This document shows positions 4,193-22,155 of a DNA stretch of 22,155 bases, in pieces. This stretch comes from a virus. The DNA lies in IMG/VR virus record IMGVR_UViG_3300033273_000652, positions 1-22,155 of that record; one strand, written 5' to 3'. The notes under the pieces are model-generated. The model worked only from the letters and a program-made list of their open reading frames with translations, was not told where the DNA came from and did no database searches. The number at the start of each line of letters is the position of its first letter. Position 1 is the stretch's first letter. Position numbers and translations under genes: made by a program.

Positions 4193-4250
4193 AAAACAAG
4201 GGATGAGCGCCGTAGGAGCCTACCCCTGTGTTTGGGTGATAGAGACTCAC
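4053..4250 (-). CDS. 65-residue aromatic-rich protein of unknown function
   Basis: GTG start at 4250 forms a GTGA with the stop of the upstream gene (4247-4480), good evidence for translational coupling. The product is rich in Tyr, Phe, Trp and Gly (SYGAHPLFYGIETFYRPWFF, then DGRIVYWGDPVTGRATALER), a composition not expected from a chance frame. It ends with a basic/acidic helix (ALERAEAMASRERQ). Its second half shares up to 140 bases with the next gene in another frame. No known family. Confidence 0.55.
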   Translation of the reverse strand: MSLYHPNTGVGSYGAHPLFYGIETFYRPWFFDGRIVYWGDPVTGRATALERAEAMASRERQSRLS

Positions 4251-5089: not shown

Positions 5090-5808
5090 GGCGCCAACCT
5101 CGCCTTACCCAGCCGCTTATCGACGTAATAACCAAGGATCTGCGGTGCCCAGTCCTCAAGGTGAGGAAGCATCAAATCGCAGAGCGTCTGAATCTCAGGC
5201 TGTGCATCAGCCTTGGCACGAAGATCGAGGAAGTGGAGCGCGCTTCGCAGGTTGAAGCTGACCACAAAGTTTTGCCGGAAGTCAAAGGGCAGCATTCCGC
5301 GAATGTGCTCCTCGGCGAATCCAGCCTTAAGACGAATGGCGTACTGACGAATCGACTCAGTGGCCGCGACCTTGTCCCGGTTGAGGTCGTCCACTGAGTA
5401 CCGGTACTTTTTGCCTTCGCGATCCCTGTAATAACCAGGTTCGCGGAAGTAGATCACCGATTCCACCGGAGCAAGGCGGTCCAGGACCTTAAGCATCCGC
5501 TGGCCCGTGTACCGCATCGACTGCACGTCGAAGCTGACGCCGACGCGGTGCGTCCGAGCCTGCTGCATCACGGAATGCGGGAACCCAGCGACACCAAAGG
5601 TGATGGCGGGATGCTCAAGCGGGCCATAGTGACCACGCTCCCCAACCAGAAGGCGCTTGACGCAGATCTGGCCAGCCCGAGTTTCTGCCGGTGGCTCGTC
5701 GTCCCCGACATAACCCTCGTAGTAGTCCTGGTGCATCGCAGCCCAAACCAGGGTCTGCGGGTTCGGGGTCCTAGATAGAACCTCAACCCTCAAATAAGAG
5801 TCCGACAT
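5086..5808 (-). CDS. thyX: FAD-dependent thymidylate synthase ThyX
   Basis: 240 residues from ATG 5808, which shares a base with the upstream TGA (TGATG) and has GAGG upstream. ThyX makes dTMP from dUMP using methylenetetrahydrofolate, NADPH and FAD, and works as a homotetramer. The diagnostic region is clear: GHYGPLEHPAITF (59-71), then RTHRVGVSFDVQSMRY (85-100), a variant of the RHR-x7-S signature with Arg85-Thr-His87-Arg88 and Ser97. The C-terminal FDFRQNFVVSFNLRSALHFL and DLR-KADAQPEIQ complete the fold. Length fits the family. It leads the operon that carries dNMP kinase. Confidence 0.93.
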   Translation of the reverse strand: MSDSYLRVEVLSRTPNPQTLVWAAMHQDYYEGYVGDDEPPAETRAGQICVKRLLVGERGHYGPLEHPAITFGVAGFPHSVMQQARTHRVGVSFDVQSMRYTGQRMLKVLDRLAPVESVIYFREPGYYRDREGKKYRYSVDDLNRDKVAATESIRQYAIRLKAGFAEEHIRGMLPFDFRQNFVVSFNLRSALHFLDLRAKADAQPEIQTLCDLMLPHLEDWAPQILGYYVDKRLGKARLAP

Positions 5809-6038
5809 CAAACAACCTCGACGTTGGACATGGGCCAGCGCGCCTTCGCGTACTTCAACGCACGAGTCTTGGACTCAGCCTGCAGCTCAACAAACATGGG
5901 ACTCGCACCAACTTGGGAAACGCGAACCCTGAACTTCCTGGTTTTTGCCCCTGGAACGGCTCTGCTTATGCCGTCACCATGCTGGGATTTAGCTTCCGCA
6001 TCATCATCCCAAGTAGTGTTCAATGCAAAATTCGACAC
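5808..6038 (-). CDS. small basic beta protein of unknown function
   Basis: 76 residues from GTG 6038; TTG 6059 would add seven hydrophobic residues. The conserved-looking part is the C-terminal half (KTRKFRVRVSQVG, SPMFVELQAESKTRALKYAK), a beta-beta-alpha unit ending in a ...NVEVV strand, the pattern of small modification-or-binding domains often seen in cyanophages. The N-terminal 30 residues are acidic and probably flexible. It is coupled to ThyX by TGATG and is the first gene of the operon. Function unknown. Confidence 0.55.
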   Translation of the reverse strand: MSNFALNTTWDDDAEAKSQHGDGISRAVPGAKTRKFRVRVSQVGASPMFVELQAESKTRALKYAKARWPMSNVEVV

Positions 6039-6096
6039 AAATAAAAGATAATTGAGCAATGGGCGTTCCTATAGTAACTCAAATGCGAGGAGTGCT

Positions 6097-6336
6097 ATGG
6101 CCTGGTTTAACCGGGATCTAACACCCGAGAGGGAACTCTCAATCGAGCTAGCTGCTCGCGGAATGGGGGAGCGCGAAGCGTATCTCTTCAAGACTCTGAT
6201 GTCTTACCAAGAGATGCTCCAGCAAGCAGTCCACGAGATCATGAGGCTGGAGTTTCTTGTTGAAGATCTTCAAGAGCAAGTTCAATCGCTTCTTCCTGAA
6301 GCTCCCGAAACAGACGCTCCCCAATCTCGTCAATGA
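6097..6336 (+). CDS. 79-residue helical coiled-coil protein
   Basis: ATG 6097 is preceded by GAGGAG at a good distance, deciding the start over an in-frame codon at 6052. The product is all-helical: MAWFNRDLTPERELSIELAA, then a long heptad region (MLQQAVHEIMRLEFLVEDLQ, EQVQSLL) and an acidic tail. It is the only plus-strand gene between two minus-strand ones and overlaps the 3' end of the gene at 6239-6709 by 98 bases, tail to tail. Function unknown. Confidence 0.6.
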   Translation: MAWFNRDLTPERELSIELAARGMGEREAYLFKTLMSYQEMLQQAVHEIMRLEFLVEDLQEQVQSLLPEAPETDAPQSRQ

Positions 6337-6709
6337 GTAGCTGCTGGAATTTTTCCTCGGCTAACGCGGTTACGAGCTTGTTGTCAGGCTCGGGTGCAGC
6401 CTTGCGGATCTCAACGATTTCCCTTTTCTGGGGAATCTTGAGCAGCTGCATCGCATTGGTACGAAAAGCGTTGCAGATCCCCATCTTTTTGCGGATCTTG
6501 TGAACCCAGTCAGGGTCAACAGGCTGGCCCGTGTGGATCTCTTTCTGCAGAGCATCCGACAGAGCGTTCTCCATCGAGCGAGCTGCCATGACCAGCTCAC
6601 CGTTGAACCGGTAAAGGTCAGAACTGGTCAGCTTGTTCAACTCGTCCATCGCAACGACGCGGTTAAGCGACTTGCTGTGGAACGTCAGTGCTGCGGGCTT
6701 TGTATCCAT
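6239..6709 (-). CDS. 156-residue helical protein of unknown function
   Basis: Starts at ATG 6709, just downstream of a terminator hairpin. The product is almost wholly alpha-helical and charged (SDLYRFNGELVMAARSMENA, WVHKIRKKMGICNAFRTNAM, then LIDEIGERLFRELQEEA). A basic central part and an acidic C-terminus are visible. No motif is recognised. The last third lies antisense to the coiled-coil gene 6097-6336, and both frames look protein-like. There is no obvious ribosome binding site. Confidence 0.6.
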   Translation of the reverse strand: MDTKPAALTFHSKSLNRVVAMDELNKLTSSDLYRFNGELVMAARSMENALSDALQKEIHTGQPVDPDWVHKIRKKMGICNAFRTNAMQLLKIPQKREIVEIRKAAPEPDNKLVTALAEEKFQQLLIDEIGERLFRELQEEAIELALEDLQQETPAS

Positions 6710-6724
6710 AAGTACATAAAACGA

Positions 6725-6750
6725 TAAGCCCCAGTTTGTACTGGGGCTTA
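6725..6750 (-). terminator. intrinsic terminator hairpin
   Basis: A perfect 10-bp stem (TAAGCCCCAG / CTGGGGCTTA) with a six-base loop. Read on the minus strand it is followed by a short T-rich stretch (ATCGTTTTA). It lies just after the stop of the 6774-7055 gene and before the next minus-strand start at 6709, the expected place for a terminator. On the plus strand no T run follows. Confidence 0.65.
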
Positions 6751-6773
6751 CATTCTACATCATCAAATGAGAC

Positions 6774-7055
6774 TCACTTTGAGGGCTTTTCAAGGCAGAC
6801 CACAAAGCATCCAGGCCGAGTTGCATCACGACGCACCGAGTACTTGACTTTGTCACTGGCGCGACTCATCACTCCAACAACCTGCGAAATAGTAGTGGGC
6901 CGGTAGCCCTTGCCAGTCTCCTCGTCCCAGTAGGGCACATAAATCGCGTCGCCAGGCTTCATTGCCAACACTTCCTCGCGAAGAGGAGTGGTCTTGCACA
7001 CACGACCAGTGCGGACCTTGACCTCTGACATGGAGACTCGCTCAAACGAAGACAT
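6774..7055 (-). CDS. 93-residue protein of unknown function, divergent from HTH gene
   Basis: ATG 7055 is chosen over longer in-frame starts; ATG 7031 (MSEVKV) is an alternative. The product has a central PGDAIYVPYWDEETGKGYRP segment followed by a helix-strand part (TTISQVVGVMSRASDKVKYS, VRRDATRPGCFVV), reminiscent of a small DNA-binding or beta-barrel domain, but no family is certain. It ends before a good terminator (6725-6750). It is divergent from the HTH gene, and a palindrome lies between the two, so both are probably controlled by the same site. Confidence 0.65.
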   Translation of the reverse strand: MSSFERVSMSEVKVRTGRVCKTTPLREEVLAMKPGDAIYVPYWDEETGKGYRPTTISQVVGVMSRASDKVKYSVRRDATRPGCFVVCLEKPSK

Positions 7056-7095
7056 AACTACCAGAACAGGAACGAACCTTACAAATAGCGTACAC

Positions 7096-7116
7096 TGCAC
7101 AAGCATTAATTGTGCA
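7096..7116. promoter_or_regulatory. palindromic operator candidate
   Basis: A perfect inverted repeat TGCACAA - 7 bases - TTGTGCA, 21 bp in all, in the gap between two divergent genes (starts at 7055 and 7122). The size and the arm spacing, about one and a half turns from arm centre to arm centre, suit a dimeric helix-turn-helix repressor. The HTH gene starts six bases downstream, so the product may bind here and repress itself and its neighbour. Confidence 0.5.
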
Positions 7117-7121
7117 ATCCG

Positions 7122-7292
7122 GTGAGTAAGGAAGAAGCTAAAAAAGACCCTGCTCCACCTGATCAAAGACTTGTGCAGTTCATGCATAAGGGGGGAATGA
7201 GCGGAAAATCGATCTCCCGCGCACTCCGCATCCCTTACACGCGAGTGCTGCGCTGGATTAAGGAAGAGTCACCTTCACAATCCGCTTCGTAA
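7122..7292 (+). CDS. small helix-turn-helix DNA-binding protein
   Basis: 56 residues from GTG 7122; a TTG at 7110 lies within the palindrome and is less likely. The core (residues 19-48: FMHKGGMSGKSISRALRIP, YTRVLRWIKEE) matches a resolvase/Hin-like HTH: a turn at GGMSGKSISRALRI, then a recognition helix ending RWIKEE. There is no dimerisation domain, so it would be a minimal regulator. Its start lies next to a 21-bp palindrome, a likely target. Its 3' end overlaps the opposing gene at 7258-7476 by 35 bases. Regulatory role is inferred. Confidence 0.6.
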   Translation: MSKEEAKKDPAPPDQRLVQFMHKGGMSGKSISRALRIPYTRVLRWIKEESPSQSAS

Positions 7293-7476
7293 AGTCAACA
7301 GCTGCAAGCGGGTTGGCACGCTTCAACAGCCAAACGCCAACCCCCGTCAATCTGTTGTGCTCCCCACTTACCGGTTGTGGCTCCAGGTGCTCAACAATCC
7401 ACTTAGGCGGGCGCACCACCCAAAGAGGACGCTTAGATCCCAAACGGATGAGGTTTAGTCCGAGGCTCTGTAACAC
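7258..7476 (-). CDS. 72-residue basic protein of unknown function
   Basis: GTG 7476 has GGAG eight bases upstream. The product (VLQSLGLNLIRLGSKRPLWV, then VRPPKWIVEHLE) is basic and beta-rich with a Pro/Trp motif, ending FTKRIVKVTLP. It begins 22 bases inside the preceding 55-residue gene. It is the last gene of the minus-strand replication block and meets the HTH gene tail to tail. No family recognised. Confidence 0.5.
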   Translation of the reverse strand: MLQSLGLNLIRLGSKRPLWVVRPPKWIVEHLEPQPVSGEHNRLTGVGVWLLKRANPLAAVDFTKRIVKVTLP

Positions 7477-7622
7477 GGTTCAGACTCCGAGATAAGGAAA
7501 GCTTGGTTGGAAAAACGGTAAAAAGGGCCAGCGCTAAGGATTGCTCTGGCCTCCTGTTCGCTGTTGGCACGGATGACTTCGTACAACCCGATAGACGGGA
7601 TCGAGAAGACAAACCTGCGCAT
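7455..7622 (-). CDS. 55-residue protein of unknown function
   Basis: ATG 7622 overlaps the upstream TGA by one base (TGATG). The product starts MRRFVFSIPSIGLYEVIRAN and contains an SEQEARAILSAGPFYRF segment, a beta-alpha unit like those of other small phage proteins that handle the 'A.s.qeA' helix. It was found by reading the minus strand between two other small genes; length and coupling support it. Function unknown. Confidence 0.55.
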   Translation of the reverse strand: MRRFVFSIPSIGLYEVIRANSEQEARAILSAGPFYRFSNQAFLISESEPCYRASD

Positions 7623-7801
7623 CAGCTGACCTGGGTAATCTTGATAATCGTGGCATCCAAGAAGGAGTCACGTACCAGTATTGCGGCGTGATAGTCGTCC
7701 TCTGCCATGATCCGCAGCGACTTGATCAAAGTGCTGTGGTCACGGCGATAGGTGACCTCAAAAGTGCCATAGCCACGGCGATAGCCGCTGTAAGCGTTCA
7801 C
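7622..7801 (-). CDS. 59-residue protein of unknown function
   Basis: GTG 7801 overlaps the stop of the upstream membrane peptide (GTGA); TTG 7849 is a longer alternative. The product (NAYSGYRRGYGTFEVTYRRD, STLIKSLRIMAEDDYHAAIL) is a beta-alpha-beta mini-domain ending ATIIKITQVS. This layout resembles its downstream neighbour (7455-7622), so the two may be distant paralogues. Coupled on both sides. Function unknown. Confidence 0.55.
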   Translation of the reverse strand: MNAYSGYRRGYGTFEVTYRRDHSTLIKSLRIMAEDDYHAAILVRDSFLDATIIKITQVS

Positions 7802-7887
7802 GAGAACTGGGTAAGGAAGATGGTTACGACAAGTAACCCGAGTAACCAAGTAGCGCCGAGCAGAACAACAAGTTGGTTCTGAGTCAC
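7798..7887 (-). CDS. 29-residue single-pass membrane peptide
   Basis: GTG 7887 follows four bases after the stop of the RHH gene, and the stop overlaps the next GTG (GTGA). The product is MTQNQLVVLLGATWLLGLLV followed by VTIFLTQFS: a polar N-terminus of five residues and one strong membrane helix. The frame is open further upstream, but that would overlap the RHH gene. A tiny membrane peptide fills the space exactly, which supports it. The role is unknown. Confidence 0.45.
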   Translation of the reverse strand: MTQNQLVVLLGATWLLGLLVVTIFLTQFS

Positions 7888-7891
7888 AGCA

Positions 7892-8143
7892 CTACTTACG
7901 TTTTCGCCGAAGGTTGGCTTGGCGCTCGATCCAAGTGGAACGGAGCTCTGCGTCCTGCTTGGCAGCTTGGTTGTACGTGGCACTAGAGACTGAAAGCTCT
8001 AGAGCTTCATACAGCTGATCCCGTAAAAAAGCACTGGTTTTTAACCCTTCTTTTTCTGCCAGGGCATCAAAGAGAGCGGCTCTGTGGGGATCAAGCAGAA
8101 CTTGAAACCGGCGCTTATGGCCGTGCAAAGAATTGGCGGTCAT
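7892..8143 (-). CDS. ribbon-helix-helix-like DNA-binding protein
   Basis: 83 residues. Residues 11-48 (RRFQVLLDPHRAALFDALAE, KEGLKTSAFLRDQLYEALE) fit an Arc/CopG-type ribbon-helix-helix: a beta strand, a helix, a turn (EGLKTS) and a second helix. These proteins bind DNA as dimers and often regulate their own operon. The C-terminal tail is helical and very basic (ERQANLRRKRK). A promoter-like GTAGTACA element lies just upstream (8163-8175). The DNA-binding role is inferred from the pattern. Confidence 0.6.
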   Translation of the reverse strand: MTANSLHGHKRRFQVLLDPHRAALFDALAEKEGLKTSAFLRDQLYEALELSVSSATYNQAAKQDAELRSTWIERQANLRRKRK

Positions 8144-8162
8144 AAGGGCAAAGGTAACGTTT

Positions 8163-8175
8163 GGAATGTACTACC
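8163..8175 (-). promoter_or_regulatory. promoter-like GTAGTACATTCC element before RHH gene
   Basis: On the minus strand the sequence GGTAGTACATTCC lies 20 bases before the RHH start. It matches the core of the elements before DNA polymerase (10317-10332) and DNA ligase (16370-16385), with a -10-like TACATT. No good -35 is visible. It is a candidate promoter only. Confidence 0.3.
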
Positions 8176-8374
8176 AGCTAATACTGGGGTCAAGGTGTTT
8201 GCGCCACGCAGATCGCTGTGATTTGCGACTAATGCGTCTCTGCTTTGTACAGCCCTTGCGGACGTCTTTAGCAAAGGCGAGGAATTCAGCAGCGCGCTGA
8301 AGATCTGCTGTCGTTGCTGTGCGCATTTCATCTTGCAACCAAGCCACCATGATTTGGCGACCAGTTCGCGCCAT
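8171..8374 (-). CDS. 67-residue basic helical protein of unknown function
   Basis: ATG 8374. The product (MARTGRQIMVAWLQDEMRTA, DLQRAAEFLAFAKDVRKGC) has a well-formed helix followed by a very basic C-terminus (KQRRISRKSQRSAWRKH), suggesting nucleic acid binding. A competing frame (8140-8421) starts at the polymerase stop (TGATG) and ends at the RHH start (ATGA), so it has better coupling, but its product has poor composition after residue 30. I prefer this frame on composition; the choice is not secure. Confidence 0.45.
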   Translation of the reverse strand: MARTGRQIMVAWLQDEMRTATTADLQRAAEFLAFAKDVRKGCTKQRRISRKSQRSAWRKHLDPSISW

Positions 8375-8420
8375 AGATTGCGCCAGCCGTGCAACTTAAT
8401 AAAGATTAAGTAACGGTGCA

Positions 8421-10298
8421 TCACTTTGCCTCGGACCAGGTCTTGCCCCAGGCAGCCTCGGCCAGCGCAGGGATTTCGCCTAACCACTTGGACTCGGCGT
8501 ACTCCATTTCTTTGCTGAGCAGCGCAGCCCACTGCTCCTCAAGGCCCTCACGCACCAGCAGCACAACTTCGTCATGGACGACAGCAGCTAAGCGGACTTG
8601 CGACTCTCCGGTTTTACGGAGGTGCTGCCACAAACGATGGAGCGCGTACTTGAGGATCGCCGCACCAGCTCCCTGAATTGGGGTATTACAGCGTGTCGTT
8701 AGCCGGTTCATGTCCCCAAGCAAGAATCGGCGCATATCCGTTTTAGGTATGCGAATTTCAGCAAATCTTTCGTGCTCGGTCATGTTGGCGAGGTTTGCGT
8801 TTTTCCTCTGCCACTCATGAATCCCTTGGTACGTGCTGTGGAAGGTGTCGCGAATCTGCTCCGCTTCTTCCACCGTCATGGTGATCCCCATCGCACCTGC
8901 GTAATCGCGTAGTCCCTTGGCACCTGACCCATAGAGCAGACCAAAGTTTGCGGATTTAGCTACCTGGCGCCTGGCCTTCATCTCGGCTTCGTCGTCAGTC
9001 GGCTCTGGGTAAATGGCGTTCGCAGTAATGGTGTGGAGGTCTTCATTCCTTTGGAACGCGCTGATCATGAGAGCGTCCTGGGATTCAGCGGCGGCGAGAC
9101 GGAGCTCCATCTGGCCGAAGTCAGCCACCACAAAGCTCCAGCCCTCAGGCGCTTCGGCGGCCTGACGGAAACCCTTATCCCGCGGGACCTGCTGCAAATT
9201 CGGCTCCCGGCAAGACATCCTTCCGGTGTCAGCCCCGAGCTGCAGATAGCTGGCACGGATGAAGCCATCGTCGTCCTGGTGGTCAAGCAGCGCCACAACC
9301 ATCTGCCGACGCTTCTCAGCTTTCTTCCAGGCCAGGTAGAGCTGAATGACCTTGTGGTCCGCCGCATAGGAGCGAAGAGCTTGCCGGGATGCGCTGGGCT
9401 TACCCGTCTTGTCCTTGGGCTCCTCACCAAGCAAGACGCCCAGCTTGTAGACCAGCTGCTTTGGTGAGTTGAGATTGAAGCCGGCCAGCTTCTTGGTGCC
9501 GAGCCTGACGTGGCCCGTCGCCTTGGCACGCAGGTTGAACGTGCCATCCTCATCGCGCGGCAGCTTCTCTTCTTCGGGCATGGCAGCATCGAGCTCTTGG
9601 ACGAACTCGGCACCAAGGCGCTCGATCTCGCCCTCGTAGTGCTGTTGCAGCTGCTCTAACTTGGCCCGGTTGAAGGGCAAGCCAGTTCGCTGCATGTGGG
9701 CAATCGCCTCCAACGCCCGACATTCCAGACCCCAGGCCATGTACAGGCGCCGGGCCATCAGAAGATCGGTGACCTTCTGAGCCAGGTGCAGCAGGATGCG
9801 GACGTCGTTAGCGGCGTAGGTCTTCTGGGACTCGGTGAGATCCGGTTTTGACCAGTCAGAAGCCTGCTCCTCCTTGCTGACCTCAATGTTCAGGTAGCGC
9901 TTGCAGGCTGGAGCCAGACCATTGCGCACGTTGGGGATGCCGTTCTCTAGCAACCGTGACGCAAGCATTGTGCAAAACACGACTCCCTCGGGATAGATGT
10001 CGTGCTGCTGAAGCCAGCCCAGATCAAAGGTGGCGTTGTGGGCGTACCAGTGGCGCTTCTCCTTGGCCTGGAAGAACTCCTGGATCTGAGTCCAGTCCTC
10101 AGGCTCCAAATCCCACATGTCAATAACGACAACGGGCTTAGCTGGCGCGGCCAGCTGCAACAGGCGCAAGCCGCCGGTCTTGGGTTTGAGAGCCGTTGTC
10201 TCTGTGTCGAAGGCGATGACCTCGGAGTCCTCAAGCCAGTGAAGGAACTCGATGCCATGGAGCGTCTCAGGCGACGCGGACCAGTCAGGTGCAGACAT
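8421..10298 (-). CDS. polA: family A DNA polymerase with 3'-5' exonuclease
   Basis: 625 residues, the phage replicative polymerase. The 3'-5' exonuclease motifs are intact: Exo I FDTETT (Asp31, Glu33), Exo II NATFDLGWL (Asp92), Exo III YAANDVRIL (Tyr161, Asp165). The polymerase motifs follow: A at VADFGQMELRLAA (Asp393; Gly instead of the common Ser), B at RRQVAKSANFGLLYGSG (Lys448, Phe452, Tyr456), C at VVHDEVV (Asp576). Phe452 is at the position of E. coli Pol I Phe762. There is no 5' nuclease domain, as in T7-like and other phage polymerases. A TACAAT element at 10317-10332 probably starts its transcript. Two copies of the GGACTYG-N7-CCGGTTTT motif lie in the gene. Confidence 0.97.
   Translation of the reverse strand: MSAPDWSASPETLHGIEFLHWLEDSEVIAFDTETTALKPKTGGLRLLQLAAPAKPVVVIDMWDLEPEDWTQIQEFFQAKEKRHWYAHNATFDLGWLQQHDIYPEGVVFCTMLASRLLENGIPNVRNGLAPACKRYLNIEVSKEEQASDWSKPDLTESQKTYAANDVRILLHLAQKVTDLLMARRLYMAWGLECRALEAIAHMQRTGLPFNRAKLEQLQQHYEGEIERLGAEFVQELDAAMPEEEKLPRDEDGTFNLRAKATGHVRLGTKKLAGFNLNSPKQLVYKLGVLLGEEPKDKTGKPSASRQALRSYAADHKVIQLYLAWKKAEKRRQMVVALLDHQDDDGFIRASYLQLGADTGRMSCREPNLQQVPRDKGFRQAAEAPEGWSFVVADFGQMELRLAAAESQDALMISAFQRNEDLHTITANAIYPEPTDDEAEMKARRQVAKSANFGLLYGSGAKGLRDYAGAMGITMTVEEAEQIRDTFHSTYQGIHEWQRKNANLANMTEHERFAEIRIPKTDMRRFLLGDMNRLTTRCNTPIQGAGAAILKYALHRLWQHLRKTGESQVRLAAVVHDEVVLLVREGLEEQWAALLSKEMEYAESKWLGEIPALAEAAWGKTWSEAK
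8594..8616 (+). repeat. GGACTYG-N7-CCGGTTTTA motif copy in polA
   Basis: GGACTTG, seven bases, CCGGTTTTA. Same spacing and orientation as the copies at 9827, 15506, 22002, 22042 and 22099. In polA this copy sits in a different codon phase from the copy at 9827, so protein homology does not explain it. Confidence 0.5.
9827..9849 (+). repeat. GGGACTCG-N7-CCGGTTTT motif copy in polA
   Basis: GGGACTCG, seven bases, CCGGTTTT: identical halves to the two right-end copies at 22042 and 22099 with the same spacing. It lies antisense to polA codons for KPDLTES. Confidence 0.55.
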
Positions 10299-10316
10299 AA
10301 GCGATAAGGCTGTGGT

Positions 10317-10332
10317 GATTGTACTACAAATT
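10317..10332 (-). promoter_or_regulatory. promoter-like AATTTGTAGTACAATC element before polA
   Basis: The 16 bases AATTTGTAGTACAATC on the minus strand are identical to those before DNA ligase (16370-16385). TACAAT (10318-10323) would be the -10, placing transcription start about 12 bases before the polA ATG. It overlaps the stop of the 55-residue gene. The repeat in two places supports a real promoter; no clear -35 is seen. Confidence 0.5.
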
Positions 10333-10498
10333 AAGGCAACAGCTGGCCGCGGTGTCCACGAGTCTTGGTTGTGGAGCCGGGCGGCAGGGCATCCCTAAGC
10401 CAACCCGAGGGCGGTTCAGGGATGGCACGTTCCAGGTCGGCGAAGAAGCGCGCAAGGCGCTCCTCCTCCGTCGGTGGGGTGAACTTCTTGCGTTCCAT
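10331..10498 (-). CDS. 55-residue Pro/Arg-rich protein
   Basis: ATG 10498 overlaps the primase-helicase TGA (TGATG). The product (MERKKFTPPTEEERLARFFA, DLERAIPEPPSGWL) has an amphipathic helix and a basic Gly-rich tail (TTKTRGHRGQLLP). It sits between the primase-helicase and the polymerase, coupled to the former, and the polymerase promoter element covers its stop. The position suggests a replication accessory peptide, which is inference. Confidence 0.6.
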   Translation of the reverse strand: MERKKFTPPTEEERLARFFADLERAIPEPPSGWLRDALPPGSTTKTRGHRGQLLP

Positions 10499-12999
10499 CA
10501 GTCCCACTCCGCGAGCACCTGGTCAATGCAGTCCCGCTTCTGCTGGTCGCTGAAGGTCGGTTCGTCCTCGCGCGCGCCTGCGCGTATAGAGCGTTCCAAT
10601 GTCCCCTTTCCATCAGATCCCTGTTCCTGCAAGGGATTTAAAAAGGGACACTCTGAATCTGAAGACAAGTTGTCCCTTTTTGTCCCCTCCGTTTCAGCAG
10701 GGCTATCACCGGCTTGAACGTCACCAGGAGTAAAAGGGACAACTTGGCCTGTCCCCTTTTGTGTCCCTTTTTCAGATCCCGTACCACCACTGGGATCTGC
10801 CCCTAAAGGGACATTTTCTACACACTCTCCCCGCAGGCGCGAGGAAAGAACCGCCCTATACAAAAACTGAGGCTTCTTACCTTGAGTTTCTTGAGTCGCA
10901 CCCACGATCTCCACCAGGCCCTTCTTCTTCCAGCGTTGGAGCGCCTTTTTGACGGCTTCGTTGTTGCCGCCGCAGGTGGGGTCTGCTTGGAGCTGCTTCA
11001 GGGTTTTGGGCTCCCTAGCCAGGCGGAGGCGCTGAAGCACCCTGTCGCTGATTCCAGAGGGCGCTGCGTTGGTTGGATCGACCTCGGGGGTCCAGTCCTG
11101 AATCGAGTAGCTCAGGTCGGCCTGCTGCTTCATCAGCAGCTGCGTGCCGCCGCGACCACTACGGGACTTCTCGAAGGTCAGGATCCGCGCAGCTTGGCCC
11201 GTCTGCTCAACCTGCTTTTCGGTCGGTTTTTTCAGCGAGATCACCTCGTCGACGGCATCGCGAATCGCCGATGTGCCTCTGAAGTTGCCGTTTTTGTTGG
11301 CGTGGTGGATGACGATGATCGTCGTGGCCGGGAAGGCGTCCCCGTTGTTGCGGGTCAGCCAGTACAGCGGGGTGGCGAAGTCGCTCTTGTTCTCGTCGAA
11401 GGCCTTACCGCCGCTGCAGCCAATCAACGAGTCGATGATCACGAGCTTGGGCTGGTACTTCTCGATCTGGCGGATGAAGAATGCGTAACGCTGGATCTGG
11501 AAGTCGCTGCGGATCGTCACGTTGGTTCCCCGCGGGAAATCAACCTCCTCCAACTGCTCCTGGACCTGGATGAGCGGCTGGTCGCCATTAAGGATCAGAA
11601 CGCCACCCTTCTCGACCGGCACCTCTTGGCCACGGATCTTGAATGGTGCGCCCGTAGCGATGTGCTTAGCCAGGGTCCAGGCGGCCATCGACTTGCCGTC
11701 ACCGCCCGAGCCGTACATCAGCACCACCGATGGCGTGGCCAGCAGATCGGGGATCAGGTAGTCCCGCTTGAAGTCGGTGTCGAGGAGGCTGTCGATCGTG
11801 ATGGCATCGGTCTTCTTCTCGTAAGCGAGTTGGTCGACCAGGATCCGCTCGATCTTTTCGGCATCGCGATGGCCCGACTCAACGGCCAGCCGATGCATCT
11901 CGTAGTTCAGCTCGGCGGGGTTGTCGAGCTCGATGATTGCCTTGGCCCGTTCAAGGAGCTCCTCGAAGGGCATGGCAACCTGCTGGATGCGCTGAACCTG
12001 CGCCTTCTCGATCTGGTCAAGCGTCTTCCGGCTGGAGTCTTGAAATCGCTCCCTGTTGGGGTCGTAGCCGTCTGCAAGGCGGATCAAGCTGCCCAGACCG
12101 GCGTTACCCGGCCGTCCAGCCTTCTCAAGGATCAGAGGCCATTTATCGGCGCATGGGTTGCCGTGCTTCCAGTCCTCCTCGTAGTCGGAGTCCTCGGCAG
12201 ACCACGCAGACCACAGAGTCAGGCCAAGGTCGTTCGGCAGGTCCTCGGCGATCATTGCGCCGACAATCCACCAGTCGTCTTCGTTCCCCCGGCCGCATTG
12301 AGGCAGGACGGTCAGGCAGTCACGGACAATCTCAGCAATCTCATCCTGGGTTCTGCCGGAAAAGTCGAGGCCTTTTCGGTTCTTGACAAGGCCGCTAGTC
12401 TGGGACGGCGTGTCCTGTACGTAGCGAGCACGCATCTCAGCCAAGAGCCACTCAGGAGCCTGAGGGATCTGGTTGAGATCACCAGAAGCAAGCTTGTAAG
12501 TACCTGCAGGTGCTTTGCCGTCGGAGGAACCGGGGTAAGTACCAGCGATTACGCCTTGCTTTCCCCAAAGCACCTCATAGCCCTCACCCGTATGGGAGAG
12601 GCCAAAACCCTTGACCTGAGCTCTCTGATCCTCAGGAACACGGAAGACATATTTGGCAGCATTCTTCTTCGTACTAATAATCTTGGGTGCGTCTTGCAGT
12701 GAGTCGCCCCACTTTTTCGACAGAGTTGCGAGGTTTGCGTCTACATCAAGAATGACGAGACCTTGAGAGCGGATTCCGGTAAATAATCCAACCGCAACGA
12801 ACTCTTCTGGGACTCGCTCTAAGAAAAGTGCGACATCACCCGGCGACATGTGCCGCCTAAAGGAATCCTCGTGAGGGTTCTTGCCCTTACTGACGATCCG
12901 GTTCTTTCCGTAGACAACGCCCTTCGCATAAATAGGCGTATAGGCGGGACCAACAGGGAGCGAATTAACGAACCCAATGAGTTTTTTGTTGGGACTCAT
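10498..12999 (-). CDS. primase-polymerase / RepA-like helicase fusion
   Basis: 833 residues. Residues about 15-190 are a primase-polymerase domain: VGLFTGIRSQGLVILDVDAN with the catalytic Asp85-x-Asp87. Residues about 219-312 fit a primase C-terminal helical domain (DDWWIVGAMIAEDLPNDLGL, LWSAWSAED, LGSLIRLADGY). Residues about 400-640 are an AAA/RepA-type helicase: Walker A GSGGDGKS (430-437), Walker B LVIIDSL (519-525), then IIVIHHANKN and a RGTSAIRD arginine-finger region. Residues 650-718 look like a winged helix (DRVLQRLRL, then LKQLQADP). Residues 720-833 are a disordered Gly/Pro/Glu tail coded by a repeat-dense stretch. It would unwind the fork and make primers. Such fusions are known in phages and plasmids. 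Confidence 0.9.
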   Translation of the reverse strand: MSPNKKLIGFVNSLPVGPAYTPIYAKGVVYGKNRIVSKGKNPHEDSFRRHMSPGDVALFLERVPEEFVAVGLFTGIRSQGLVILDVDANLATLSKKWGDSLQDAPKIISTKKNAAKYVFRVPEDQRAQVKGFGLSHTGEGYEVLWGKQGVIAGTYPGSSDGKAPAGTYKLASGDLNQIPQAPEWLLAEMRARYVQDTPSQTSGLVKNRKGLDFSGRTQDEIAEIVRDCLTVLPQCGRGNEDDWWIVGAMIAEDLPNDLGLTLWSAWSAEDSDYEEDWKHGNPCADKWPLILEKAGRPGNAGLGSLIRLADGYDPNRERFQDSSRKTLDQIEKAQVQRIQQVAMPFEELLERAKAIIELDNPAELNYEMHRLAVESGHRDAEKIERILVDQLAYEKKTDAITIDSLLDTDFKRDYLIPDLLATPSVVLMYGSGGDGKSMAAWTLAKHIATGAPFKIRGQEVPVEKGGVLILNGDQPLIQVQEQLEEVDFPRGTNVTIRSDFQIQRYAFFIRQIEKYQPKLVIIDSLIGCSGGKAFDENKSDFATPLYWLTRNNGDAFPATTIIVIHHANKNGNFRGTSAIRDAVDEVISLKKPTEKQVEQTGQAARILTFEKSRSGRGGTQLLMKQQADLSYSIQDWTPEVDPTNAAPSGISDRVLQRLRLAREPKTLKQLQADPTCGGNNEAVKKALQRWKKKGLVEIVGATQETQGKKPQFLYRAVLSSRLRGECVENVPLGADPSGGTGSEKGTQKGTGQVVPFTPGDVQAGDSPAETEGTKRDNLSSDSECPFLNPLQEQGSDGKGTLERSIRAGAREDEPTFSDQQKRDCIDQVLAEWD
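10600..10813. repeat. iteron-like GGGACA repeat cluster, candidate origin
   Basis: About eight copies of TGTCCC(C)TTTT or its complement AAAAGGGACA: plus-reading at 10600, 10671, 10681 (partial), 10750 and 10762; minus-reading at 10640, 10732 and 10805. 10641-10650 and 10671-10680 form a perfect 10-bp inverted pair. A second repeat, CAGATCCC, occurs at 10614-10621 and in an inverted pair at 10773-10780 / 10792-10799. All lie in the tail of the primase-helicase gene and are read in varying codon phases (KGT, VPFT, KRDN, CPFL), so the DNA rather than the protein is conserved. Confidence 0.55.
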
Positions 13000-13836: not shown

Positions 13837-13850
13837 CCATAAATGGGCCT

Positions 13851-13890
13851 TGACGGACTCTGACCGGTTCTGACGGGATCTGACCGCTTC
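13851..13890 (+). repeat. four tandem 10-bp repeats before KilA-N gene
   Basis: TGACGGACTC, TGACCGGTTC, TGACGGGATC and TGACCGCTTC follow one another with no gap (consensus TGACSGNNTC), ending 11 bases before the KilA-N ATG. A 10-bp period puts each copy on the same face of the helix, the layout of a multimeric operator or iterons. Confidence 0.65.
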
Positions 13891-13901
13891 ACCTACCTCT
13901 T

Positions 13902-14663
13902 ATGACCAACCTGATCAGCCGCTCTTGGAACGGCACCCCCATCCAACGGCGCACGACCGACGGCTACGTCAGCGCCACGGCCATGTGCAAGGCCAACGGT
14001 AAGCAGTTCAACGACTACTTCCGCACAGACCGTGCAAGCGAGTATTTGGAGGCGCTTTCGGCGGAAACGGGAATCTCCGTTTCCAACTTGTGTCTCACCA
14101 CGAAAGGCGGTGCTCACCAGGGAACCTGGGTCCACCCCCAAGTCTCCGTCGACCTGGCCCGCTGGATCAGCGCACCCTTCGCCGTCTGGATGGACGGCTG
14201 GTTCCTAGAGGAGCTCAGCGGCCGAGTGTCCCAAGTGCGGGAAGTTCAGCCCCAGCTGCCTGACGTCCTCACCACCGTCCAGCGCAGCCTCGATCTACTG
14301 GAACGTCTCGGCGGCGTTGACGATCGCGCCCAGCTTCTGCTGAAGGACATCGTCCTCAATCACGCTGCCCGCACCGCAGGCGGCGACCTTTTGCTCCCCG
14401 GCACCCGAATGCTCGCCTTACAGGAAGCGTTCAGCGAAATCGGTGGCGCGACCCCCCATGAAGCATCCAATCTCGCCACGAAATGGGGCAAGGACGTCAA
14501 GAAGCTGTACAAGGAAGAAAACGGCCGCCCACCAAAAACCCACAAACAGCTCGTCAACGGCCGCAGTTGCGATGTTTGCGACTACGAATTCGACTGGATT
14601 TCTAAACTTAAAAATGATCTAGTCGGGCTTGTACAGCAATTTCGAGCCGAACTCACACGCTAG
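13902..14663 (+). CDS. KilA-N domain protein
   Basis: 253 residues. Residues about 5-105 are a KilA-N DNA-binding domain: DGYVSATAMCKANGKQFNDY, YFRTDRASEYLEAL, then TTKGGAHQGTWVHPQVSVDL, ARWISAPFAVWMDGWFLEEL. Phage KilA-N proteins act as antirepressors or DNA-binding regulators; their molecular role is often unknown. The C-terminal part is a second helical domain with two cysteines (CDVCDYEFDW). Four 10-bp repeats directly upstream are a candidate binding site for it or for a partner. It is followed by the exonuclease with 27 bases between. Confidence 0.85.
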   Translation: MTNLISRSWNGTPIQRRTTDGYVSATAMCKANGKQFNDYFRTDRASEYLEALSAETGISVSNLCLTTKGGAHQGTWVHPQVSVDLARWISAPFAVWMDGWFLEELSGRVSQVREVQPQLPDVLTTVQRSLDLLERLGGVDDRAQLLLKDIVLNHAARTAGGDLLLPGTRMLALQEAFSEIGGATPHEASNLATKWGKDVKKLYKEENGRPPKTHKQLVNGRSCDVCDYEFDWISKLKNDLVGLVQQFRAELTR

Positions 14664-14690: not shown

Positions 14691-15527
14691 ATGGCGGCGT
14701 TTGAATTCAATCCAAAACTCAACACCGCTTTCCAAAACAAGCTGACGCGCGACGACGAAACAGATCCCAACGGCCGCATCTACCGCAACGCCGACGGCGA
14801 AATTTTCCACAGCGTGACCCGTATCCTCGGGGCTACATCCAAGTCGAAGGACGCCCTTGAGGCCTGGAAAAAGCGCCTCGGCGAAGAGCTTGCAGCAGTG
14901 GAACGTGACACTGCAGCCGAGCGCGGCACCCGCACCCACAACTCCGCGGAATACGTCCTCCGCACCGCTAAGCGGATGGCAGAACAAACAAGCGAAAAGA
15001 AGCGCACGACCTACATCAACCGCGAAGGATTGCACAGCGTCCCCGCCCAACTCACCAAGTGGGCCATCAAGCAAGCACTACCGTCCGCACCCAAGGTCGG
15101 CATCAGCGCTAGCGGTTACCGCCGCTCCCTCCTGCAGTGGATCGAAGAGAACGTCACAGCCATCCACGGCATCGAGTTTTCTATCCACCACCCCGCAGGT
15201 TTTGCTGGCACGGCTGACTTTCTGGGCTACGTCAAGGGCAATGGCCCCTTCATCTGCGACTGGAAGACCTCAGCCAATAAGCGCTCGGAGGAGATGCTCA
15301 CCGACTACACGGACCAGCTCGGCGCTTATTCCTTAGGCCTAAAACATGTTGCCAACGTCCAAGCCAAAGGCGCCGTAATCGTCGTGGCGCGTCGAGCAGG
15401 CCCCGCCCAAGTAAGGGAACTGAGCGAACTGGAATTACGCGGCGCCGAAGTCCGTTACCTGGAACGCTGCCACGAGTACTTCGACCAACTCCACCAGGCC
15501 CTCAAGGACTCGCAGACATCCGGTTAA
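14691..15527 (+). CDS. PD-(D/E)XK exonuclease, Cas4/RecB-like
   Basis: 278 residues. The nuclease core is visible: RGTRTHNSAEYVL (79-90, conserved His83), Glu162 in IEFSIHHPAGFAGTADFLGY with Asp176, then CDWKTS (Asp190-x-Lys192) and the QLGAYS Q-x3-Y motif (209-213). This set is typical of phage RecB-type exonucleases, which chew double-stranded DNA in recombination or host DNA degradation and need two metal ions. The start lies after a TAATTA-rich spacer. The last codons hold a GGACTCG-N7-CCGGTTA motif copy. Confidence 0.85.
   Translation: MAAFEFNPKLNTAFQNKLTRDDETDPNGRIYRNADGEIFHSVTRILGATSKSKDALEAWKKRLGEELAAVERDTAAERGTRTHNSAEYVLRTAKRMAEQTSEKKRTTYINREGLHSVPAQLTKWAIKQALPSAPKVGISASGYRRSLLQWIEENVTAIHGIEFSIHHPAGFAGTADFLGYVKGNGPFICDWKTSANKRSEEMLTDYTDQLGAYSLGLKHVANVQAKGAVIVVARRAGPAQVRELSELELRGAEVRYLERCHEYFDQLHQALKDSQTSG
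15506..15526 (+). repeat. GGACTCG-N7-CCGGTTA motif copy at exonuclease end
   Basis: GGACTCG, CAGACAT, CCGGTTA: same spacing and orientation as the right-end copies. It covers the last codons (DSQTSG) and part of the stop. Confidence 0.45.
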
Positions 15528-15545
15528 TCCGACCTACTTAGGCTA

Positions 15546-15575
15546 GGGACTCGGACAGACACGGTTTAGGGGGAT
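15546..15575 (+). repeat. degenerate GGGACTCG motif copy before tail-like gene
   Basis: GGGACTCG, seven bases, ACGGTTTAGGGG: one change in the second half and the same spacing, 40 bases after the copy at 15506. It ends just before the GGGGGA ribosome binding site of the 15582 gene. Confidence 0.4.
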
Positions 15576-15581: not shown

Positions 15582-16298
15582 ATGCAGAGCATCAAATGGG
15601 ACGTTGAGGATCTAATCGGCAAGCTCAACATCGTCCAGAAGACCCAGATCCCTTATGCGGGTGCGCAGGCGATGAAGCGCTTCGCATATCTCTTCAGCAG
15701 GGAGCAAGTACCCAAGGAGATGCAGGATGTGTTCAGAGCACCTGTGCCTCTAACACTGAAGTCCGTTAAGTACAAGGCCGACGGGTTAACAGCGACCTTC
15801 ACTGTCAAACAAAAAGTCCCCAAGGGCAACGCCCCCGGTAAGTACCTCTACCCGGTTTCAAGCGAAGACGCATCTGGCCGCAAACCTATATATGACACCC
15901 GCTTCACCAACGGCCTACGCAAGAAAGGCATCGTCGGTGATGGCTACTGGCCCGTGCCGTTTCTTAGTGGTCGCGGTGTCAGCATTACAAACGGCAGGAT
16001 GCGCCCTGGCCAATACGGAGACGTTCTGCGTGGCCTCGATCGCAAAGAACCCGGCAAGGGAGGTTACCGATACATCTCCATCCCTGACAACCGCTCAAGG
16101 AGACCTGCCAGTGGCGGTCTGTCGGACGGCATCTATCGCATCAAGGGCCGCAACGACGTCCAGATGCTGTTTACCTATGCCCGCACACAGCCAACGGTTC
16201 CGACAATCTTTGACCTGCGCCAGTACGCACTCGATTACGGCAACGAGGTGCTGCCCAGCCTGCTGAGTAAAGCTTTGGAACGAGCCATGCGCAGTTAG
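15582..16298 (+). CDS. tail-protein-like phage structural family protein
   Basis: 238 residues from ATG 15582, with GGGGGA eight bases upstream. The order of features matches a phage morphogenesis family I know from lambda-like genomes (minor tail Z-like): a helical start (QIPYAGAQAMKRFAYLFSRE), then PLTLKSVKYKADGLTATFTV, a YLYPV / RKKGIVGDGYWPVPF block, GRMRPGQYGDVLRGL, and a C-terminal LFTYARTQPTVPT helix. Its place among replication genes is odd. It has its own terminator (16332-16358). The assignment is by pattern, so confidence is moderate. Confidence 0.45.
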   Translation: MQSIKWDVEDLIGKLNIVQKTQIPYAGAQAMKRFAYLFSREQVPKEMQDVFRAPVPLTLKSVKYKADGLTATFTVKQKVPKGNAPGKYLYPVSSEDASGRKPIYDTRFTNGLRKKGIVGDGYWPVPFLSGRGVSITNGRMRPGQYGDVLRGLDRKEPGKGGYRYISIPDNRSRRPASGGLSDGIYRIKGRNDVQMLFTYARTQPTVPTIFDLRQYALDYGNEVLPSLLSKALERAMRS

Positions 16299-16385: not shown

Positions 16386-16423
16386 CTGCCGTGCCTGACC
16401 GCACCCCCTTACCTCTTATCTCA

Positions 16424-17173
16424 ATGGCCTCAATCGAAGCCCTGCGCACCCAGATCCGCCGAGCCGACGCTGCTTACCGCAACGGCGAGCCGATCCTGAC
16501 CGACAGCGAGTACGACGGCCTCGAAGCCGAGCTTCGCGCCCTGGCCCCTTACGCCCCTGAGCTCCGCCATCCCGGTGGCGGCACTGCCCTACTCAGCCTC
16601 GACAACTGCGCTCTTGAGGACTGGTACGAGGCCATCACGATCCAACCGGCGGTCGTTGTACAGCCCAAGATCGACGGCATCGCCGTAGCCATCCGCTACA
16701 AGTCCGGCCTGATCACCGACGCCTGGACCCGCAGCGGTAAGTGCATCCTCGACCTAATTAAGCAGGTCAGCGCCATCCCCAACGTGATCAACGAGGGCGG
16801 CGACATCGAGATCCACGGCGAGCTCTATGGCACGGACCCCGGCAAGTCCCAGACCGACGCTGCCCAGGCTGCCCGCGCCAACGCCATCGGCAACCGCAAG
16901 CTGACCTTCGCCGCCTACAAGCTGCACGGCGCAGGTGGCACGGAATCGACCAGCCTCGACCGCATCAGCCGCCTCGGCATCAACGTCGTCGACTCGCTGC
17001 TCTGCACCAAGCCCAAGGAAGTGCTGCAGGTTTACAACGACTGGCTCGACGGCCGCCGCTTCGCCTCTTACCCCTGCGACGGTGTGGTTGCGAAGGTCCA
17101 CGACCACAAGCTGCAAGCCTCCCTCGGCTCCACCAGCCGCGCCCCTTTGTGGGCACTGGCCCTCAAGCGCTAA
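16424..17173 (+). CDS. ligA: minimal NAD-dependent DNA ligase
   Basis: 249 residues from ATG 16424 (GTG 16391 possible). It carries the NAD-binding domain Ia (RADAAYRNGEPILTDSEYDG, 13-32) and the adenylation domain: LLSLDN (57-61), adenylated Lys82 in QPKIDG, TRSG (102-105), IHGELYG (130-136, motif III), CDGVVAKV (218-225, motif IV) and APLWALALK (240-248, motif V). It ends right after motif V, so the OB fold, zinc finger, HhH and BRCT domains of normal LigA are absent. It may be a partial enzyme needing a partner, or a minimal ligase or adenylyltransferase. Its promoter resembles that of polA. Confidence 0.8.
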   Translation: MASIEALRTQIRRADAAYRNGEPILTDSEYDGLEAELRALAPYAPELRHPGGGTALLSLDNCALEDWYEAITIQPAVVVQPKIDGIAVAIRYKSGLITDAWTRSGKCILDLIKQVSAIPNVINEGGDIEIHGELYGTDPGKSQTDAAQAARANAIGNRKLTFAAYKLHGAGGTESTSLDRISRLGINVVDSLLCTKPKEVLQVYNDWLDGRRFASYPCDGVVAKVHDHKLQASLGSTSRAPLWALALKR

Positions 17174-17195: not shown

Positions 17196-17675
17196 ATGCC
17201 TAAGCACCGCCTTTACACCGTCACGATGACGACGGAGTGCCTTTGCTACGCCGAGAGCCCCGAGGAAGCCGAGGAACTCGCGGTCGACCAATACCTCAAC
17301 GATGGCCCGGAGTGGACCACCCGCGCCCTCCTCAGCCGCACCGAATCCGCCACCCCCAACCATGACGCCCGCTACAACACCTTGGGCTGGTACGACCACA
17401 GCGCGGTCTACACCTCAGCCGACTGCTCCGACAGCCTGACCGTCGTCCAGGCCGTCGCACTGGACCGCGAGGCCTCAGAGCAGAGCCAATCCTTACCGCC
17501 CTGCGGCACGCGCTTCGTGGCTAAGTGCTACTCCCAAAGTGGCGCGCCCCTAGAGGTGACGATCGACGCGCTCAACGTCTTCGACGCCGTGCAAATCGCC
17601 GTGAAGTACCCCGGCGTCAGGAATGTTGCGTCGGTGCAGAGCGCTGCACTTCAAGCTGCATCTCCTCAGCCCTAA
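17196..17675 (+). CDS. 159-residue acidic protein with two similar halves
   Basis: ATG 17196 (MPKHRLYTVTMTTECLCYAE), which starts 23 bases after the ligase stop. Each half seems to hold a strand-helix-strand unit: YTVTMTTECLCYAES-PEEAEELAVDQY near the start and FVAKCYSQSGAPLEV-TIDALNVFDAVQIAV near the end, joined by a longer linker. The pattern resembles an internal duplication, but similarity is weak. It overlaps the opposing gene at 17617-17847 by 59 bases. Function unknown. Confidence 0.55.
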   Translation: MPKHRLYTVTMTTECLCYAESPEEAEELAVDQYLNDGPEWTTRALLSRTESATPNHDARYNTLGWYDHSAVYTSADCSDSLTVVQAVALDREASEQSQSLPPCGTRFVAKCYSQSGAPLEVTIDALNVFDAVQIAVKYPGVRNVASVQSAALQAASPQP

Positions 17676-19479: not shown

Positions 19480-19792
19480 TCCCACGCACACTTAGGGGCA
19501 TTGGGCACTGGTGAAGAAAGCAACCCGGCATCAACACCGCTGCCTGCGTAGGAGGTGCGCACTAATCGGGCCATTTGGTGCGGTCTGCACTCTCAAGCGC
19601 TGTCATCAAGGTTCCCGTCGTGGACATGGCCTGGTTCCAACCCCCGTCTTGGAGGCATGTGGGGCCATGCAAGCGGTGCCGCCCATGTAAGTCCCCTAAG
19701 TCGACCTGGTACGCCGCGCTTCTCACCTCTTCAGCTCACAACCCCTCTGCGCAACTCTTTTCAGCTCACTGCGTGTCGACTCACTTCACCGA

Positions 19793-19809
19793 GGGGGCTA
19801 AACGCCCCC
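19793..19809 (+). other. leader hairpin 1 (CACCGAGGGGGC family)
   Basis: GGGGGC, loop TAAAC, GCCCCC, preceded by TCACTTCACCGA. The same prefix recurs at 19926 and, partly, at 21209. Confidence 0.5.
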
Positions 19810-19925
19810 GCCCAACTCACCCCTAAGCCTCTCGGCTTACTGGTGGGTTGATCCCACCACGCATCGCCTCCTTTCCGAGCACATCCACTCATCTCGGATC
19901 GGCCCGACTCAGGTCACTTCACCGA

Positions 19926-19942
19926 GGGGGCTCCTAGCCCCC
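19926..19942 (+). other. leader hairpin 2 (CACCGAGGGGGC family)
   Basis: GGGGGCT, loop CCT, AGCCCCC, 25 bases before the ATG at 19968. A terminator-like stem without T tract, so more likely a leader or mRNA-stability element. Confidence 0.5.
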
Positions 19943-19967
19943 GCCCTTTACTTACCCACGAGGACTT

Positions 19968-21145: not shown

Positions 21146-21208
21146 AGCCCCGCGTCTCGGCTCTCGCCGTTTCAGCTCAACTCTCCTCTCCTCCGAACTT
21201 GTCACCGA

Positions 21209-21231
21209 GGCCCCTCTTTAGCTGGGGGGCC
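21209..21231 (+). other. leader hairpin 3 (CACCGAGG family)
   Basis: GGCCCC (21209-21214) and GGGGCC (21226-21231) after TCACCGA, about 65 bases before the gene at 21296. It shares the CACCGAGG prefix with the elements at 19793 and 19926. Confidence 0.4.
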
Positions 21232-21295
21232 GCTCACACAATTAGGCAGGTGGGGAGCTTGCCGGAGCAGTCCTGCCAACTAACGTCACCAGCTC

Positions 21296-21691: not shown

Positions 21692-21720
21692 GCCTGGCGG
21701 CTTACCAGCTGTAAAGGGGT

Positions 21721-21767
21721 GGCAGGTGGCCGGTCCTCACGCGGTGCCGGCCTCACCGTCGCCTGCC
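21721..21767 (+). other. GC-rich hairpin before the last gene
   Basis: Outer stem GGCAGG (21721-21726) / CCTGCC (21762-21767) enclosing GGCCGG/CCGGCC. No T tract follows, so a terminator is uncertain. Confidence 0.35.
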
Positions 21768-21844
21768 GTCGGCGGACGCTTCGAGATTCCTCAATAGAAT
21801 TTCGAGCGCTAAGACTACCGTGTGGCACGAGGTCTGGCGATCTT

Positions 21845-21997
21845 ATGGAGCGACCTGAAATGCGTGACCCACGTAATGAAGACGACTTCGATACGTGGGA
21901 ATACGGCACAGAACCTCTACCCGAGGACCGCACCTGGACTAAGCAGGCGGCATTGGCCCGCTTACTGGAACGCAAGCACTGCCCCGCGAAAAAGTAG
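21845..21997 (+). CDS. 50-residue acidic/basic protein of unknown function
   Basis: ATG 21845; ATG 21860 has a GGAG nine bases before it and is an alternative. The product (MERPEMRDPRNEDDFDTWEY) is acidic at the start, then TWTKQAALARLLERKHCPAK is a basic helix. A longer in-frame start at 21719 is rejected as its extra part looks non-coding. Last gene before the repeat-rich right end. Confidence 0.5.
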   Translation: MERPEMRDPRNEDDFDTWEYGTEPLPEDRTWTKQAALARLLERKHCPAKK

Positions 21998-22155
21998 TCG
22001 AGGACTCGCGGGCATCCGGTTTATCGCGCACACAGGGGCGCGGGACTCGCAAGGGTCCGGTTTTAGGGCCTCACACACACGCATATGAAAAATGCCGGGG
22101 GACTCGCAAGGGTCCGGTTTTAGGCCCTTTTTCACACACACCCACACATACATAC
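21998..22155. other. non-coding, repeat-rich right end
   Basis: Holds the three motif copies, CACACACAC tracts and CACACATACATAC at the edge. No gene is supported on either strand. Confidence 0.6.
22002..22124 (+). repeat. tandem GGACTCG-N7-CCGGTTTTA repeats at right end
   Basis: Three copies: 22002-22023 (GGACTCG, CGGGCAT, CCGGTTTA), 22042-22066 and 22099-22124 (both GGGACTCG, CAAGGGT, CCGGTTTTAGG). The latter two are 57 bases apart. Each copy is followed by a CACACA tract. All have the same orientation; more copies may lie beyond the window. Confidence 0.65.

Follow-up and report, generated by a model that had tools for sequence, protein, structure and literature searches.

A right-end array and its scattered copies

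The window analysed here, 22,155 nt in length, is an IMG/VR virus record for which no completeness value is given. On its + strand the word GGACTCG is found close to the right end at 22002, 22043 and 22100, as the sequence-only reading had noticed, and every one of these copies lies within a longer element of 24 nt with the consensus RRGACYYGC-N7-YCGGTTTTA, of which RGACTYGC forms the core. The same reading had placed the copies in a gene-free region and had seen a CACACA tract after each of them. Both observations were confirmed; the last gene ends at 21997 and the array is overlapped by mechanical ORFs only. The right end comprises the following features:

21719 to 21997, + strand: last right-arm gene (92 aa, product unknown), kept in the relatives G002, G008 and G009
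22001 to 22024, + strand: array copy 1, AGGACTCG..TCCGGTTTAT, with three mismatches to the consensus, at fixed positions
22042 to 22065, + strand: array copy 2, exact consensus; an RNA fold GGACUC-GCAA-GGGUCC is possible
22099 to 22122, + strand: array copy 3, exact consensus, with GGCCCTTTTT directly after it
22029 to 22148, + strand: CACACA tracts at 22029, 22072, 22133 and 22143, after every copy, the last two both after copy 3

Copy 1 starts 3 nt past the stop codon of the last right-arm gene, and copies 2 and 3 are identical at 24/24 nt. The fold GGGTCC...GGCCC followed by T5, which had also been pointed out for the last copy, is present. In 13 of 25 records CACACA or ACACAC lies no more than 70 nt away from the final copy of the array (chance approximately 0–4%). 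A search with the 4227 models of Rfam (E ≤ 1) gave no match in the window, a scan for sigma-70 promoters and simple terminators reported none at the array, and, with respect to the earlier idea of an integration site, a tRNA/tmRNA scan of the window found none.

The GGACTCG copies scattered over the window turned out to belong to the same element as the array. They are listed here together with two genes relevant to their interpretation:

341 to 12817, + strand: core-only RGACTYGC sites at 341, 5899, 7034 and 12810, with no right half-site
4832 to 4886, + strand: two abutting copies (4840 and 4863, period 23 nt) and a half copy (4832)
8593 to 8616, + strand: dispersed copy, antisense in the DNA polymerase gene; G002 and G008 differ in the spacer only
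9827 to 9850, + strand: dispersed copy, antisense in the DNA polymerase gene; conserved in G002 and G008
15505 to 15569, + strand: pair of copies (15505 and 15546) between the exonuclease gene and the gene starting at 15582, its position kept in relatives
15582 to 16298, + strand: phrog_1924 gene ("minor tail protein"), its start region overlapped by the element
16391 to 17173, + strand: NAD+ DNA ligase gene, encoding domain Ia and the adenylation domain only (the two N-terminal domains), with KIDG and DGVVAK present

The copies at 4832–4886 lie antisense within a gene for an NrdR-like zinc-ribbon protein and are kept in G008, G009 and G014, and partly in G002. Around the copy at 8593 the right flank has diverged from the relatives, the element itself differing only in its spacer. 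The pair at 15505 and 15546 shows a spacing of 41 nt, equal to that of array copies 1 and 2, and homologues of the gene at 15582 are immediately preceded by the element or immediately followed by the array. This gene, filed as a minor tail protein, occupies the early-arm end, at a distance from the tail genes; a minor-tail-annotated gene is likewise found there in S-CBS1 and S-CBS3, according to their annotation. A peptide motif common to the genes was excluded as an explanation because the reading frames across the element differ between them (three genes). An analogy with BstA/aba, considered for the KilA-N gene of the window, was also rejected, as the aba repeat (CCCGCC) differs and the KilA-N gene is absent from most other motif carriers.

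Other stretches of the window were recorded in passing. Short GTCAGA-type repeats lie on the minus strand at approximately 13845–13895, just upstream of the KilA-N gene (13902–14663), and an intergenic hairpin-like stretch, which contains CACCGAGG and has G-rich and C-rich arms, is repeated before gene starts at 19754–19813 and 19887–19946, a third copy being seen by eye at approximately 21206–21232. The regions 3061–3369 and 17208–17675 show weak similarity to phage RNA polymerase inhibitors (PHROGs E 0.0016; Pfam E 0.09, below the cut-off).

Within the window GGACTCG occurs 11 times on the + strand and 0 times on the − strand, compared with a mean of 4.07 over both strands in dinucleotide shuffles, of which 1 in 100 reached 11. 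An unsupervised listing of one-sided words placed GGACTCG and GACTCGC on top (both 11:0), while against the expectation of a second-order model GGACTCG ranked second, after TGGCCCG (16:3). Three GGACTCG within 105 nt were found in 0/100 simulated windows. The complete element was scored with a matrix built from 21 array copies, so that the scores of array copies are not independent; dispersed copies were outside the training set. At a cut-off of at least 10 bits, the window has nine matches on the + strand and none on the − strand. Simulated windows had on average 0.04 matches per strand, and their best score was 14.1 compared with 37.4 for copies 2 and 3.

Strand polarity, distribution and conservation in related viruses

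The suggestion that the array might continue past the window was borne out by G002 (24,739 bases), a close relative in which four non-identical copies occupy the place of the array and are followed by 4.2 kb up to a lambda-like cos end. Non-identical copies in independent assemblies, with G002 running on for these 4.2 kb, rule out an artefact of assembly or of the contig end. Arrays or single strong copies (1–4) were also found in G008, G009, G005, G001, G007, G006, G011, G010 and G003, and more in other loci; the match in L024 was a chance coding-repeat match and was left out of later counts. Among 84,980 genomes of bacteria and archaea, a scan returned 16 scattered matches in unrelated taxa, approximately what chance gives for 17 fixed bases. 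In isolate phages, blastn with the arrays of the window and of L060 found no array, and a 57-base match to the cyanophage S-RIM50 falls in a gene, outside the array. That the single copies derive from the array, as had been proposed, is a conjecture; many of them are conserved in their own right when relatives are compared. At the right end of G002 (L053, corresponding to G002 20001–24739), a stretch of approximately 3.5 kb to the right of the array (approximately 1650–5100; L007 11650–15500) appeared by eye to be of very unusual composition, with several ORFs starting after GAAACCATG.

The proteins of these viruses are those of a lambda-like siphophage, including tail tip protein J and tail fibres, and the replication-type proteins of the group comprise a family A polymerase, a primase-helicase, an exonuclease and the ligase. 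The 52.4-kb record G023 looks complete, because its first and last 13 bases are identical, as would result from reading a cohesive end twice; its small and large terminase genes are located at the left (based on gene order, and on similarity for the large subunit). In 11 records the cos end was located 1.6–4.3 kb further right than the array. Seven records end 2.4–4.3 kb past the array, six of them at 38–41 bases after GGGTCCT, a word that lambda also has, 30 bases away from its right end. In G007, G011, G026, L092, L093 and L096 a box of the form RGTACNNNDGTWCB is present 64–74 nt past the last array copy; such palindromes, e.g., AGTACAAATGTACT, were also seen in the corresponding position in G012 and near the right end in G001 and G005. 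This form is that of the published cyanobacterial LexA box (PMC3091678). The primase of G023 shares 57% identity, over half its length, with that of Synechococcus phage S-LBS1. Because of the S-LBS1-like primase and the LexA-type boxes, the host is probably a cyanobacterium, and the palindromes suggest that the right-end genes may be under SOS control.

Twelve related lambda-like records were oriented with the array reading forward and scanned at the same cut-off of at least 10 bits. The plus strand carried 27 array and 49 dispersed copies, 76 in total, and the minus strand none; shuffled sequence gave seven matches in three repeats, on both strands. As the records are related, not all of these sites are independent. 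Together with the shuffles and the simulated windows, the 76:0 count rules out chance. Dispersed copies lie antisense in left-arm genes, between genes in the right arm, across start or stop codons and, occasionally, in sense orientation within genes: the strand of the element is independent of gene direction. A search seeded with the ligase yielded 46 loci, including seven that belong to records of the earlier count, with 86 plus and four minus matches. L128 had minus matches only (0:3), L111 had one, and 13 of the 46 loci, L128 aside, were without a match on either strand.

The core alone is most one-sided in AT-rich relatives, where its density is approximately one per kb. GACTCGC reaches 17:0 in AT-rich loci, against 0.1–0.3 expected, and the strand counts of RGACTYGC are 30:1 in G023, 29:0 in G028, 27:1 in G027, 26:0 in G025 and 23:0 in G026, with a weaker bias in G024 (14:5). 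The core is less exclusive in GC-rich records (window 11:2, G001 12:2, G007 9:4, G005 7:3). S-CBS1, S-CBS3, S-LBS1, G015, G016, G017, G020 and G021 have 0–3 cores per strand. The recognition word appears to drift between lineages; in L110, an instance of this, the left half has changed to GTTCTTGC (10:0), the spacing is unchanged, the right half is YGGTTTA-like and a tandem array is present too. Separately, another one-sided word, GTAGTCG, was seen in G015 and G017 (L071–L073, L077–L079) at 13:0 and 14:0, with approximately two expected, and in G016 at 7:1; this may be a second strand-polar word, belonging to another group of phages.

The sites are concentrated in the early half of the genome. 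The core count of G023 is 27:0 in the early region, where sense, antisense and intergenic positions are all occupied, and 3:1 in the late region (1–27,000). Dispersed copies extend 20–25 kb inward, and core density shows no steady fall with distance from the right end, stopping at the early/late boundary. Aligned core sites were kept in 18/19 cases between G026 and G027 (background, taken over windows in general, 0.29), in 9/10 between the window and G008 (0.34), in 6/8 between the window and G009 (0.30), in 6/6 between G005 and G001 (0.31) and in 9/10 between G002 and G009 (0.61); weaker pairs were G023/G028 (15/23; 0.44) and G025/G028 (13/21; 0.50). Antisense core sites were kept in 6/6 cases between G026 and G027, against 0.33, and sense core sites in 6/12 between G023 and G028, near the background of 0.42. 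Retention above background in most pairs of relatives means that the sites are under selection. In this group of uncultured, lambda-like and cos-ended siphophages a strand-exclusive and selected element runs through the early-gene half of the genome, and the array is where its copies are packed most densely.

Candidate functions of the element

The element may act as the termination site offered by the sequence-only reading. In its favour, 15 of 27 array copies, most last copies included, fold at z < −1.5, and in the AT-rich loci L104, L105 and L107 single array copies are perfect hairpins followed by U tracts. Against it, only 2 of 49 dispersed copies fold, so that the stable hairpin and U tract of an intrinsic terminator are not found at all copies, and stem covariation is lacking (among 19 distinct rows, 0 pairs changed on both sides, a score reached by 500/500 shuffles). 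In L093 the right half is kept and the pairing lost. A broader form of this idea, that the element halts rightward RNA polymerase as a polar stop, stoperator-like or as a sequence-specific terminator, is less likely than not, yet almost as likely as the nick site preferred below. The array would then act as an insulator between the right early operon, at its end, and the promoter that follows, and the dispersed copies would slow antisense transcription that runs rightward through the left arm. The position of the array close after the last right-arm stop codon in several lineages and the LexA-type box 64–74 nt past the last copy in six records fit this proposal, as do the folding array copies, and stoperators are also asymmetric and orientation-dependent (PMC9283540). 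However, the left-arm copies are antisense, against the stoperator rule that orientation follows local transcription, sense copies sit within right-arm genes, and the hairpin neither covaries nor survives in L093. Pairing of array transcripts with left-arm mRNAs was excluded because the 7-nt spacer does not match. Use in both sense and antisense, the lack of stem covariation and the case of L093 therefore favour a direction-dependent site at the DNA level, and we infer that the element would be recognised in duplex DNA, rather than in mRNA, by a protein acting in one direction or on one strand.

Several kinds of DNA site could be polar in this way. A Chi-like site, at which a host or phage end-processing nuclease entering at the free right cos end and moving left would be switched from degradation to recombination, is unlikely, even though the element is short, frequent, polar and indifferent to the coding strand. 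By the rule that relates the orientation of Chi to the direction of enzyme travel, the + orientation fits an enzyme coming from the right end, for which the array would be the first cluster encountered. Loading of RecBCD on lambda DNA is confined to the right end (PMC2082072). What argues against this proposal is that site density ends at the early/late boundary instead of falling steadily from the right end, that the cyanosiphophages S-CBS1, S-CBS3 and S-LBS1 are motif-negative, and that the extended form, at 24 nt, is longer than is usual for Chi. A replication element, be it a polar fork barrier, a priming site or an iteron-like initiator site around an origin, would account for a polar, repeated signal limited to the half with the replication genes; with a spacing that is not iteron-regular, a spread of approximately 25 kb and no dedicated initiator identified, we regard it as improbable. 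Packaging, also raised in the sequence-only reading, is disfavoured because the array lies 1.6–4.3 kb from cos in 11 records, not at the cut, with dispersed copies 20–25 kb inward. The left half-site does resemble the cos end (0/1000 random segments were as good in G012, 3/1000 in G010), but not significantly so in 9 of 11 records tested; the cosN similarity is a weak lead only, and a cosB- or pac-like role is very unlikely. T7 evades a type III restriction enzyme through site orientation bias, and orientation bias alone would look similar here. Such evasion, chance or an assembly artefact is nevertheless scarcely credible, since the sites are enriched and not merely one-sided, are conserved, and occur as non-identical copies in independent assemblies.

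The reading that we tentatively prefer, with less than even confidence, is a direction-dependent DNA site at which nicking is the probable event. One strand would be nicked at the element sites by an enzyme that the phage encodes, in the manner of T5, phiKMV-like phages and tf; after entry, the nicks would be closed again by the LigA-type ligase that the phage itself carries. In lambda, the right-end half of the genome enters the cell first; by analogy, no other stretch of the first-entering half would be marked as heavily as the array beside the right end. The ligase gene is present in 4/4 well-covered lineages and absent from six motif-negative relatives; it was undetected in the array carriers G006, G003 and G013, of which G003 and G013 are short. 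Isolate relatives of the ligase of L119, among the matches listed, are mostly LigA (NAD-dependent) proteins of large Klebsiella phages at approximately 29% identity, phages whose size and gene name suggest that they may be T5-like. A search for a nickase gene identified none, and no candidate is common to all lineages; an HNH gene at 2588–2953 of the window is present only in some of them. More speculatively, the sites might form a polarity code of cyanobacterial siphophages, with up to approximately 30 copies of a lineage-drifting word on one strand of the early half only, by which a directional enzyme (nickase, translocase or end-processing nuclease) would tell early from late DNA and the ends apart.

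Comparison with known polar sites

Synechococcus phages S-CBS1, S-CBS3 and S-LBS1 share the lambda-like gene order, and S-CBS1 and S-CBS3 end with a minor-tail-annotated gene, that of S-CBS3 being a homologue of the gene at 15582. Unlike the motif carriers, all three are without the element; a ligase was not found in S-CBS3, and none is annotated in S-CBS1 and S-LBS1. No published description of such a signal for the motif-carrying phages was found in the parts of the literature covered by our search. Chi and the entry of RecBCD into lambda likewise involve polar sites with an orientation fixed relative to cos, but lack the sharp early/late limit observed here, and reading of the present element by a host enzyme is putative. 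The stoperators of cluster A mycobacteriophages are also numerous, asymmetric, genome-wide sites whose orientation matters; they follow the direction of transcription at promoters and short intergenic gaps (PMC9283540), whereas the element keeps to one strand and is often intragenic. If the element were Chi-like or a transcription stop, it would still be a strand-polar signal of which our search found no description for the motif carriers.

Strand-specific nick sites have been reported in several phages, and their role has been open since the 1960s (PMC3517423). In tf, 14 nicks, all in the top strand and mostly in one genome half, share the word TACTRTGMC, the phiKMV-like word is bipartite (CGACxxxxxCCTACTCCGG), and among relatives nick positions are similar while the word drifts (PMC3517423). 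The blind word count used for the present phages, when applied to tf, returned the nick motif on top among 8- and 9-mers, with 14:0 for the consensus. Among the nicks annotated in tf, too, there are ones that touch a start codon and ones that are antisense within late genes. The present element resembles the sites of tf, phiKMV-like phages and T5 in being a short degenerate word on one strand, in either coding direction and unevenly spread along the genome; confinement to one strand (76:0 in 12 records; weaker in G024, G007 and G005) and independence of gene direction were both found here. Tandem arrays with spacings of 10–57 nt are unreported for tf, phiKMV-like phages and T5 in the parts of PMC3517423 available to us. 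If these are nick sites, the sharp early/late boundary and the nearby ligase make their function testable, and the phenomenon would extend to lambda-like cyanobacterial phages, which differ from tf, phiKMV-like phages and T5 in their cos ends, in their tandem arrays and in having up to approximately 30 sites, known here from sequence alone, in 25 kb.
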